From contig JAISBN010000140.1 of NCBI GenBank assembly GCA_031266175.1, positions 1-35,296 of the forward strand: a stretch of 35,296 nucleotides of DNA. Direction: 5' to 3'. A model generated the notes under the pieces. It saw only the letters and a program-made list of their open reading frames with translations, made no database searches and was not told the origin of the DNA. Origin of the DNA: Treponema sp. Lineage in GTDB: Bacteria > Spirochaetota > Spirochaetia > Treponematales > Breznakiellaceae. This document shows, piece by piece, positions 5,287 through 9,039 of this stretch (positions are counted from its first letter, which is position 1; every line of letters begins with the position of its first letter). The position numbers and the translations under genes are program-made.

Positions 5287-5310
5287 GGATTATTTTTCGG
5301 AATAAAAACC
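5287..5310 (-). terminator. Possible terminator of the U32 gene
   Basis: On the minus strand an imperfect hairpin spanning the stop region is followed by a run of seven T (complement of 5280-5286). The stem is weak, so confidence is low. Confidence 0.3.
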
Positions 5311-7470
5311 GTTCTTCCAGTTAAACCGGGAAATCCGCGGCAGGGGCAGCACTTCTTCCGCGGCCTTCATCACCTCTTTGTACAGCTTTTTTTTAAGGGG
5401 GAAGGTTCCGTTAAAAACACCGGCGGAAAAATCCAGGATGAACCGGCGGAAACCCGCTTCCATAAGAAAGGGCCGTTTATCCACTATGGAAAAAGGCTCC
5501 CCGGGAATGACCACGCCGCCGGAATTGTCTTCGCCGCCGTTTATCAGGCTGAAGCTTTCTCCCCGGCTGCCGGTGAACTGCCTGAAACGGTACCGCAGCC
5601 CGCCCCTGATCCTGAACAGCGGCGGCCAGGCAAAGAGGGTAACAAAAACCGGCGGCCGCAGCCGGGGCGGAACGGTTTTTTCCAGATTCTGCCGGTTGAT
5701 TTCCAGCGGAGCGATAAAGGCGGAAGCCCCCAGGGTCCCGGTAAAAGCCAGGGCCCAGGAATTAAAGGTATAGAGCCAAGGTCCGGCAATCAGGGTAAAG
5801 GCCTTGTCTTTGGGAAAAAAGGAAACGTGCCCGGGGTTGTTCAGGATAAAGCGGCGGAATCCGCGTTCCATAAGCTGTCCAAGGGCCTCCCGTAAAAAAG
5901 CTTCTTCGCCCTGGGGAAAATACGGATCCAGCGCCAGGATGATGTCCGGGGCTTTAAAGGGAAGGGTCCTGTCATCCCGCAGGACTGCGGCGGTTTTCCG
6001 GTTAACCGGCAGGATCACCGCCGCGGGCCGGACAGACTGGATAACATAGAGATCCTCCGCCGTCGCTGCCGCCGCGTAGATCCCTTCGGGAAGCGCCTTC
6101 CGCAGTTCCGCCGGAGAGTCCCTGCCGGCGGCGATCGGCGGCCGCGGCGCTTTTTCCCTGCCGGGCTGACGCCTGAAGGAGCCGAGATCCCCGGGAATAA
6201 CCGGCGGATAGCGCCTGGTCATGGCTTTGGTCTGGATCAGGTAAACCGAGTCGCCGGGCTCAAAACCCTCGGGTACGGAAATGCTCAGCCCCCTGCCGTC
6301 ATGTTCCGCCGCCGAGAGCTTGTGGGTAAGGCGGCGGGAATCGTCGGCCCTGTGAAACCGTACCGAATCCCCCGGCGCGGGAGCAGCGCCGGTAAATCCG
6401 CCCGCCTTAACCAGCGCCCGCCGGGCCGCGCCGGAACCCCGTACCGCGGCGATAATTCCCAGGCTGATGCCGGTTCCCCCGTCCTGGTCCGGCCGCAGAA
6501 AGGCGGATGCGGAGGAGCTAAAAAAGAATTCCGTCTTGGGCCGGGCAAAGTCGTTCCGTAAAATACGACCGGCCTCTTCCAGAGCCCGGCGGCGGTCATC
6601 CTCGCCGCCGTCCAGGCTGTCGATAACCCGCCGGTAGGCGGAAACCACGGTTCCCACGTACTCCGCGCTTTTCATCCGTCCCTCGATTTTGAAGGACCCC
6701 ACCCCCGCCTCCGCCAGTTCCGGTATCCGTCCGATAAGGGACAAGTCGCAGGGGCTGAAATAGTACCCGGCGGTTTGAGCGCCGGAAGCGCCGCTGGAAA
6801 CGCCGCCGCCGGGGACGCCGCCCGAACCACCGCCAGGGGCGCCGCCAAGGACGCCGCTTTCCGTCCGGTAAAGACGGCGGCACGCCTGGGTACAAAGACC
6901 CCGGTTGGCGGATTTGCCGCCCAGGTAGCTGGAAAAAAGACACAGCCCCGAAGCGCTCACACAGAGCGCGCCGTGGACAAAGGTTTCCAGTTCCAGATTG
7001 GTTCCCTGGCGGACAGAGCGGATTTCTTCCAGCGAGAGCTCCCGGGCAAGCACCGCCCTGGAGACGCCGTATTTGGAAAGGGCATTGGCCCCCCGGGCGG
7101 AGGCGATGTTCATCTGGGTAGAAGCGTGGAGCTTAAGGCCGGGGAATTCCCGGGCCATCATCAGGATGCCGAAATCCTGGACAATAATACCGTCGGGCCC
7201 CGCGGAAGCCAGGTAGCGCAGCAGCTGGTACATCTGATCCGCTTCCCGCTGTTCAAATACCGTGTTAAGCGTTACATACAGCCTGCGGCCCATGCGGTGA
7301 AGCGAGCGCAAAGCGCCCTCGAACTGGGAATAGGCAAAATTGGCGCTCCGCATCCGGGCGTTAAAAGCCTTAAGCCCCAGATATACCGCGTCGGCGCCTT
7401 CCGCCACCGCGGCGTCCAGGGCTTCCGGGTTCCCGGCGGGGGCTAACAACTCTATTGCGGGCGGTACCAT
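5290..7470 (-). CDS. Peptidase U32 family protein (RlhA/YegQ/PrtC-like)
   Basis: This is a 726-residue protein. The N-terminal half is a clear U32 domain: IELLAPAGNPEALDAAVAEG at the start, then GADAVYLG, LHASTQMN, ELSLEEI, the ETFVHGALCV block, and the Cys-rich segment NRGLCTQACRRLY. SFKIEGRMKSAEYV follows. U32 proteins were once called collagenases; E. coli RlhA hydroxylates 23S rRNA and others modify tRNA or cofactors, so the reaction here is open. A Gly/Ser-rich insert (GGAPGGGSGGVPGGG and onward) splits the domain. I chose ATG 7470 because the LLAPAGN motif follows at once and the start overlaps an upstream ORF stop as TAATG. An in-frame ATG at 7509 has no supporting signal. Confidence 0.9.
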   Translation of the reverse strand: MVPPAIELLAPAGNPEALDAAVAEGADAVYLGLKAFNARMRSANFAYSQFEGALRSLHRMGRRLYVTLNTVFEQREADQMYQLLRYLASAGPDGIIVQDFGILMMAREFPGLKLHASTQMNIASARGANALSKYGVSRAVLARELSLEEIRSVRQGTNLELETFVHGALCVSASGLCLFSSYLGGKSANRGLCTQACRRLYRTESGVLGGAPGGGSGGVPGGGVSSGASGAQTAGYYFSPCDLSLIGRIPELAEAGVGSFKIEGRMKSAEYVGTVVSAYRRVIDSLDGGEDDRRRALEEAGRILRNDFARPKTEFFFSSSASAFLRPDQDGGTGISLGIIAAVRGSGAARRALVKAGGFTGAAPAPGDSVRFHRADDSRRLTHKLSAAEHDGRGLSISVPEGFEPGDSVYLIQTKAMTRRYPPVIPGDLGSFRRQPGREKAPRPPIAAGRDSPAELRKALPEGIYAAAATAEDLYVIQSVRPAAVILPVNRKTAAVLRDDRTLPFKAPDIILALDPYFPQGEEAFLREALGQLMERGFRRFILNNPGHVSFFPKDKAFTLIAGPWLYTFNSWALAFTGTLGASAFIAPLEINRQNLEKTVPPRLRPPVFVTLFAWPPLFRIRGGLRYRFRQFTGSRGESFSLINGGEDNSGGVVIPGEPFSIVDKRPFLMEAGFRRFILDFSAGVFNGTFPLKKKLYKEVMKAAEEVLPLPRISRFNWKNGFYSEK

Positions 7471-7565
7471 TAGCGGCCCCCACGCCGCGCTGCAGGTGCG
7501 GCGGAACATGCTCGATGTCTCGCATGCGGGTTCTTGGCGGGGGCTAATAATTCTATTGGGGGCAT
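7470..7565 (-). CDS. 31-codon upstream ORF repeating the U32 N-terminus
   Basis: ATG 7565 begins MPPIELLAPAKNP, almost the same as the start of the U32 protein (MVPPAIELLAPAGNP), then continues in another frame with HARHRACSAAP and stops at TAA 7472-7470. That stop overlaps the U32 ATG by one base. A TGGACT / TATCTT promoter lies just upstream, 6 bases before this ATG. The duplicated DNA is 7527-7565 against 7426-7470. It may be a leader peptide coupled to U32 translation, a relic of a 5' duplication, or a sequencing artefact. Expression is inferred only. Confidence 0.5.
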   Translation of the reverse strand: MPPIELLAPAKNPHARHRACSAAPAARRGGR

Positions 7566-7571
7566 TTGTTT

Positions 7572-7600
7572 AAGATACCGCAAAAAGGGGGGATAGTCCA
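7572..7600 (-). promoter_or_regulatory. Promoter of the U32 transcription unit
   Basis: On the minus strand TGGACT (7600-7595) and TATCTT (7577-7572) are 17 bases apart. The -10 lies 6 bases before ATG 7565, the start of the upstream ORF, not of the main U32 frame. A small hairpin GCGGG...CCCGC at about 7634-7650 lies further upstream. Confidence 0.5.
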
Positions 7601-7694
7601 CAAGTGGTCTACCCCCGGCGGGATTTAGTTAACGCGGGATTGATACCCGCCCGGACAAATCGCGTACTTCGGGAATATCGGAATAATTAATTTT

Positions 7695-8241: not shown

Positions 8242-8586
8242 TTACAGCCAGGACATAACCACAACAGATATAATAGCGCCTCCCCGTGATTCCTGACTGA
8301 ATTGCCTAACCGCGGACATATTTGGCTGGACATCAACATTATAATAAAGGGTATGTCCATTATTAAACCTTATTTGAAGCTGCAGCATACGGAATTCACT
8401 GCCATCATTCCTGACAAATACAACCTGATCATTGTGCTGAATTGTAACATTAGGCGCCGGATACGGAGTCGGAGCATTAGACGGCTGATATGGATTTGGG
8501 GACCAATTACCTGTCGATTGTGCAAAAACAGCACCCGTGCCAACAATCACGAGCAGCAAAAAAGCCGCTAACAGTTTCTTTTTCAT
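8242..8586 (-). CDS. Small secreted protein, paralogue A
   Basis: This is a 114-residue protein starting MKKKLLAAFLLLVIVGTGAVFAQ, a standard signal peptide with cleavage after AQ. The mature region is about 91 residues: a Pro-rich start (NWSPNPYQPSNAPTPYPAP) followed by a likely beta-sandwich (VTIQHNDQVVFVRNDGSEFRMLQLQIRFNNGHTLYYNVDVQP). The gene at 9039-8734 shares signal peptide, spacing and the pattern RxLxLxIxFxxG...YxVxVQP, so they are paralogues. GAGAGG lies before the ATG. The upstream region (8587-8686) is also shared. Function is unknown; secreted to periplasm or surface. An in-frame extension to 8664 exists but would add an unlikely charged N-terminus. Confidence 0.8.
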   Translation of the reverse strand: MKKKLLAAFLLLVIVGTGAVFAQSTGNWSPNPYQPSNAPTPYPAPNVTIQHNDQVVFVRNDGSEFRMLQLQIRFNNGHTLYYNVDVQPNMSAVRQFSQESRGGAIISVVVMSWL

Positions 8587-8686
8587 AACAAACCTCTCTT
8601 CTTTTTTCCCTTTCCAGGGTCTTCGTTTAATTACCCTACGGTAATTTATATACGCCGTTAACATATACGCCTATCATGCGCGTATC
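8587..8686 (-). promoter_or_regulatory. Duplicated upstream region with inverted repeat, copy A
   Basis: This block closely matches 9040-9150 upstream of the paralogue. It contains the perfect inverted repeat ATTACC (8630-8635) / GGTAAT (8640-8645), then TATATACGCCGTTAAC and ATGCGCGTATC. Conservation of a non-coding palindrome in both copies suggests a shared operator or promoter. Confidence 0.55.
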
Positions 8687-8693
8687 GAACACA

Positions 8694-8725
8694 GATACTA
8701 CCCCGGCAAAAACCGGGGTAGTATC
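8694..8725 (-). terminator. Strong hairpin downstream of paralogue B
   Basis: GATACTACCCCGG (8694-8706) pairs perfectly with CCGGGGTAGTATC (8713-8725) around a 6-base loop. It follows the stop of the 9039-8734 gene and lies in front of the paralogue A promoter block. No U-tract follows on the minus strand. Confidence 0.65.
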
Positions 8726-8733
8726 TAAAGAAT

Positions 8734-9039
8734 TCAGGACCAACCAACAATCGTCACACTTTGAACTTTCTTTGGATGAAAAACTCTTCTTACACTGTCT
8801 CTTCTATTACTTGGCGTAGGCTGAACAGTAACATACCAAGTATCACTTGTCCCATCCTCGAATTTAATCCAAAGATCAAGAGTGCGTGACTCATTACTGG
8901 AATTGCTAATGTATACTTCCCAACTATTAGGGGTTCTAATTGTAATACCAGGTGGAGGTCCCGGGCTCCATTGGGCAAAAACCAAACCTGCGCCAACAAT
9001 CACGAGCAGCAAAAGGGTTACCAACATTCGTTTTTTCAT
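8734..9039 (-). CDS. Small secreted protein, paralogue B
   Basis: This 101-residue protein starts MKKRMLVTLLLLVIVGAGLVFAQ, nearly the same signal peptide as the 8586-8242 gene. The mature 78 residues contain WSPGPPPGITI, then RTLDLWIKFEDGTSDTWYVTVQP and end VTIVGWS. The pattern matches paralogue A (end VVVMSWL), but mature sequence identity is low while the promoter and signal-peptide DNA are highly alike. A beta-sandwich fold is likely. GAGAGG precedes the ATG. No database family is recognised. The pair looks like a recent duplication with fast divergence of the exported domain. Confidence 0.8.
   Translation of the reverse strand: MKKRMLVTLLLLVIVGAGLVFAQWSPGPPPGITIRTPNSWEVYISNSSNESRTLDLWIKFEDGTSDTWYVTVQPTPSNRRDSVRRVFHPKKVQSVTIVGWS

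Follow-up and report, generated by a model that had tools for sequence, protein, structure and literature searches.

The start of the U32 peptidase gene in the window (the whole 35,296-nt stretch of Treponema sp. DNA analysed here) is present twice, and is best explained by insertion of a dispersed hairpin repeat, termed S, right after the GC-rich codons GCCCCCGCC, with duplication of the target. On this reading, to which we assign a probability of about 0.8, the insertion split the U32 start between an upstream target copy (R1), which keeps the promoter, and a gene-side copy (R2), which carries the start of the present-day gene. The odd duplicated start codon would then exemplify how one repeat family remodels gene ends in spirochaetes of the termite gut, as we take the S-bearing relatives to be. 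The consequences of such insertions vary, from displacement of a promoter and start codon by ~100 nt, through placement at stop codons or non-coding RNA ends, to one in-frame gain of ~45 residues. The features concerned are as follows.

5290-7470, minus strand: U32 peptidase family gene (Pfam PF01136, Peptidase_U32, 1.4e-73).
7435-7462, minus strand: R2, gene-side target copy, the first codons of present-day U32 and a direct repeat of R1.
7470-7565, minus strand: mini-ORF of 31 codons, which begins with the putative ancestral U32 start, reads through S and ends in TAATG; translation MPPIELLAPAKNPHARHRACSAAPAARRGGR.
7476-7486, minus strand: right arm of S, GGCG-T-GGGGGC, complementary in sequence to the target arm GCCCCCGCC, G-rich and just 5′ of the U32 ATG.
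7479-7540, minus strand: S, dispersed hairpin repeat of 62 nt (covariance model R2, 49.7 bits, E 2.5e-8; DNA similarity to contig C39 of genome G001, E 4e-8).
7505-7527, minus strand: inner hairpin core of S, GCATGC-GAGACATCGA-GCATGTT (core matched exactly, with 0 chance occurrences expected in the window; stem covarying over 126 copies).
7536-7563, minus strand: R1, upstream (putatively ancestral) target copy, ending in the arm GCCCCCGCC (codons A-P-A); direct repeat of 7435-7462 at a spacing of 101.
7572-7577, minus strand: -10-like hexamer TATCTT, 6 nt 5′ of the upstream ATG and so near-leaderless (TATTAT/TACTAT lies 7-8 nt before the U32 ATG at orthologous loci L006, L007 and L008).
7595-7600, minus strand: -35-like hexamer TGGACT of the putative ancestral U32 promoter (L006, L007 and L008 have TGGAC[GT] equally far from their U32 start).

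An earlier sequence-only reading had described a 31-codon ORF that copies the U32 start and ends in TAATG on the U32 ATG, together with about 40 duplicated bases. Both are confirmed, the former at 7565-7470 on the minus strand and the latter as a 42-nt direct repeat (7522-7563 versus 7421-7462, spacing 101) in which 35/42 positions (83%) are identical. The best ungapped 36-nt match of the region is 31/36, as against at most 24/36 in shuffles (n = 200); this value is reached nowhere else in the window, making the U32 5′ repeat its strongest short-range repeat. With an identity of only 83% between the two copies, the U32 event is not recent. The TAA of the mini-ORF (7472-7470) and the U32 ATG (7470-7468) have one A in common, and the U32 product begins MVPPAIELLAPAGNP. 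Position 7470 is the likely U32 start, though the U32 frame is open upstream as far as 7569 and an in-frame ATG at 7509, within S, offers an alternative. The same reading had called the differences between the copies mostly silent, a claim that fared less well: the shared core has three substitutions, two of them indeed silent, but a blind test across ten similar loci gave no codon-phase signal (p = 0.64), and we therefore reject silent differences as a sign of coding selection on both copies. Six hand-picked loci gave 12/21 synonymous changes (p about 0.005), a figure that is not relied on.

Comparison with orthologues points to which copy is ancestral. The pattern TGGAC[GT]-17/18-TAnnnT lies 7-8 nt before the U32 ATG in the three closest complete orthologues (G055, G020 and G056; 71-75% identical), which supply three of the four matches in the orthologue strands (274 kb). 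Within the window TGGAC-17/18-TAnnnT-ATG occurs once in the two strands together (70 kb), before R1 and not before the present U32 ATG. A simple sigma-70 consensus scan did not report the U32 promoter, so that the promoter claim rests on conservation. Since the conserved promoter precedes only the upstream copy, the mini-ORF most likely begins, judged from sequence, where U32 once did, behind the old near-leaderless promoter. Among the orthologues whose upstream regions were compared the mini-ORF is absent, and in none of 28 does model R2 detect S ahead of U32; G001 is the only same-genus genome and its U32 contig stops at codon 33, so the empty U32 sites come from other genera. The suggestion that a 5′ duplication had moved the promoter away from the gene thus holds as far as the promoter is concerned; as to cause, an insertion of S with target duplication, in a geometry that recurs elsewhere, takes the place of a plain tandem duplication.

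Three further observations concern this neighbourhood and its counterpart in a relative. At locus L015 (G048) U32 begins MVTSKVELLAPAG after GGCATGGGGGCTGCTTATGGTAACG, which by eye resembles a decayed S insertion at the same site and to which model R2 gives no score. A palindrome, GGGGGTAGACCACTTGTGGACTATCCCCCC followed by TTTTTG (7589-7619, minus strand), shares bases with the -35 element in front of U32 and might serve as an operator or as terminator for the gene upstream. Further upstream, 8242-9039 on the minus strand encodes two neighbouring small secreted proteins of like design, MKKKLLAAFLLLVIVGTGAVFAQ and MKKRMLVTLLLLVIVGAGLVFAQ, with no Pfam match.

The segment between the two copies belongs to a repeat family. 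In a DNA search of G001, the single strong match besides U32 was to contig C39 (window 7480-7540, 81%, E 4e-8), which holds three tandem S copies at the end of a gene that is rhomboid-like by eye. The core GCATGCGA-n6-GAGCATGTT is present in six genomes of family f1, probably Breznakiellaceae, and never in the reversed control. A first covariance model, built from twelve copies, matched 35/119 related genomes, all within that family; as it included the window copy, a second model (model R2) was built from ten S copies of four other genera, with no own-genus sequences. Across a phylum sample of 198 genomes S scores in this genome alone, which holds 6 copies. Both the inner and the outer stem covary over 126 copies, with 131 both-sided changes versus 34 in shuffles, and this signal is lost when the pairing is slid by one to three bases, which establishes S as a palindromic dispersed repeat. 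Tandem S copies stand 102-103 nt apart in many species. At gathering scores Rfam has no match in the window, and 12 S loci have none to the element; literature searches returned nothing relevant on such repeats in Treponema, and as far as could be found the family is previously undescribed.

The arrangement of repeat, S and repeat recurs at unrelated genes, in two cases with empty orthologous sites. A GH1 gene of G003 (L184) carries a 5′ repeat of 43 nt (40/43 identical, spacing 103), such that its first eleven residues, MGFRDDFVWGA, occur twice and the upstream ORF crosses S and the real start, as in U32; at the GH1 locus of G040 the upstream gene is the same and the insertion is absent. At the 3′ end of the pyruvate ferredoxin oxidoreductase gamma (POR) gene the same geometry is seen in G001 and G003 (L179, L183), the site being filled in contig C204 of G001, in G003 and in the closed genome G030, and empty in eight cases (G006, G020, G040, G046, G055, G056, G057 and contig C205 of G001). 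Flanking direct repeats are further found around S in a D5-like gene of G040 (L198), by eye in a beta-lactamase-fold gene of G057 (L294), and as a perfect 35-nt repeat in G048 (L194). Target duplication is thus best documented at GH1 and POR, with their empty sites, and by the perfect repeat at L194, and is absent from most copies. Flanking direct repeats exceed shuffles in 50/99 scanned copies, clustering at 100-103 nt and twice that (100-106 nt overall, including L198 in closed genome G040); among isolated copies (n = 83) they do so in about 20, several at host gene ends, and in about 60 flanking duplication is not detectable.

These results bear on two simpler accounts of the U32 locus. A direct repeat with a short spacer is what would be left had the 5′ end of U32 simply been duplicated locally in tandem, the spacer having merely diverged with no repeat element involved. 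Such a duplication would, however, have copied the spacer too, and the sequence 5′ of R1 is unlike it; moreover the spacer is a covarying family member, found by the independent model R2, and the spacing recurs at unrelated genes of other genera, so that we regard this account as improbable. A history in two steps, insertion of S and then local duplication, is conceivable as an alternative. That the metagenome assembly fused alleles of the U32 5′ end from two strains is a concern raised by the contig being part of a MAG, by the break in the same-genus contig nearby and by the many S copies near contig ends. Against this, the segment between the copies belongs to a repeat family, and geometry and spacing are repeated in the closed, single-contig, S-bearing genomes G040 (4,059,867 bp) and G030 (3,855,671 bp), which renders an assembly artefact highly improbable.

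Other placements of S were noted along the way. Contigs C204 and C205 of G001 carry POR gamma copies that are 98% identical within one MAG, only C204 having S; the pair represents either a strain mixture or a recent duplication. At L182 a copy lies within a DegT/DnrJ-like aminotransferase gene and adds about 45 residues in frame. Copies at L189, L196 and L200 adjoin 5S rRNA and SRP RNA genes, and S so also targets the ends of non-coding RNAs. In four species (L177, L188, L192, L197) copies adjoin a common conserved non-coding stretch, CCCTGCCCTTGAGGCATGTCGGAAATATAGTGATTTGGGAGGGGAACTATAGG, which has no Rfam match and is perhaps an undescribed small RNA.

For U32 we propose the following course of events, in which we infer the direction of change, that the mini-ORF is transcribed and translated, and that U32 is reached by termination-reinitiation. 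S (about 62 nt) would have inserted right after GCCCCCGCC near the U32 5′ end, with duplication of about 28-35 nt of target and a gain of ~101 nt. R1 would have kept both the near-leaderless promoter and the start codon of the original gene; transcription would hence still begin there, and translation from R1 would enter S out of frame and stop after 31 codons. R2 would now bear the U32 start, displaced about 95 nt further downstream, leaving the old promoter to generate a leader of about 95 nt ahead of the new ATG, and U32 would be translated by termination-reinitiation at TAATG, which is plausible given that the mini-ORF has a leaderless-type start and overlaps the U32 ATG in TAATG. The G-rich right arm just 5′ of the ATG is paired in the predicted fold, and direct ribosome loading there may accordingly be poor. 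Since GGCCGCTAATGGTACCGCCC resembles by eye the corresponding segment of other S copies (e.g. GGCCCAGTAATGGTCACGGCACCC in L231), the new ATG and the residues MVPPA may themselves derive from the element.

Compatible with insertion of S is the further idea that this coupling has been selected, i.e. that the mini-ORF is kept because its translation opens the hairpin and brings ribosomes to the U32 ATG. The TAATG overlap, the paired right arm GGCGTGGGGGC just 5′ of the ATG and a near-leaderless ancestral start, on which ribosomes would load at R1 first, speak for it; yet the G-run could recruit ribosomes by itself, the in-frame ATG at 7509 provides another start, and a TAATG-like sequence in the equivalent segment of other S copies means that the overlap may be chance. 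On balance selected coupling is possible, at somewhat less than even odds. The sequence-only reading had also offered a functional leader peptide, the mini-ORF acting as a regulatory peptide or attenuator that controls U32. It does have a promoter motif, a start codon and a stop overlapping the next start, but it lacks a counterpart in the inspected U32 orthologues, its 3′ two thirds are S read in an arbitrary frame, and the same geometry at GH1 yields a different peptide. In addition, leader RNA spanning the repeat region shows no stability beyond that of shuffles (z -0.4); a longer leader that takes in the palindrome upstream does fold better than shuffled sequence (z -3.2). A leader peptide function is therefore unsupported and extremely unlikely, the mini-ORF being better seen as a by-product of insertion geometry.

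Two features stand out in these data: the duplication, unusually long and specific to each locus, that accompanies copying of a ~60-nt element with flank-matching arms, and the possibility that near-leaderless genes survive such insertions via termination-reinitiation. The GC-rich target arm is already present in empty relatives (GAAGCCCGCC at POR, GGGGCGCC at GH1, GCCCCCGCC at U32). Over 95 copies the arm that follows GGCGT complements flanking sequence at its own locus more closely than flanks assigned by permutation (mean run 1.93 versus 1.48; 0/2000 permutations reach the observed mean), an effect that is modest in most copies. S may tentatively represent a new class of mobile hairpin, moved by an enzyme, in which a GGCGT-N5 right arm pairs with host N5-CGCC for target choice and 25-43 nt of the gene end are copied at integration, such that genes keep their start or stop; we consider this a doubtful proposition for the present.

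Among known systems, REP/BIME elements with their RAYT transposases are similar in that S hairpins are dispersed at gene ends and sometimes form tandem arrays. They differ in that this genome has no Y1_Tnp genes and that the distribution of such genes does not follow that of S: G024 and G028, with no S match, have 27 and 52 copies, and the S-bearing G000, G003, G006 and G013 have zero. On this mismatched distribution a Y1 transposase (TnpA_REP) was rejected as mobiliser. Integron attC arrays, known from oral treponemes, are likewise tandem hairpin sites, but no attC core sites were recognised. No full integron integrase occurs in any S-bearing genome among the 45 searched, and the integrase, too, was rejected as mobiliser; G023, without S, is the only family f1 genome with an integron integrase over the cut-off. 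With bacterial MITEs S has in common that it is short, non-coding, dispersed and structured, with target direct repeats around some copies. Target duplications are usually a few bases, as opposed to about 25-43 nt around S. The outer stem of S, CCGCC/GGCG-T-GG, forms a short inverted repeat, but terminal inverted repeats of known transposons were not found, nor, short of a systematic search, was an autonomous partner. Rickettsia palindromic elements (RPE) are short dispersed palindromes, about 100-150 bp long, situated within or next to protein-coding genes and in some cases in frame (PMC10969869). S, too, is palindromic, dispersed and located in or at genes, with one clear in-frame case (L182, in the DegT-like gene); the spacings at U32 (101) and GH1 (103) do not preserve the frame, and many copies are found at the 3′ ends of genes. 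Compared by description, RPE differ in belonging to another phylum, and S in being a conserved 62 nt with long, locus-specific duplicated flanks. RPE and other MITE-like repeats are nevertheless the nearest described kinds.
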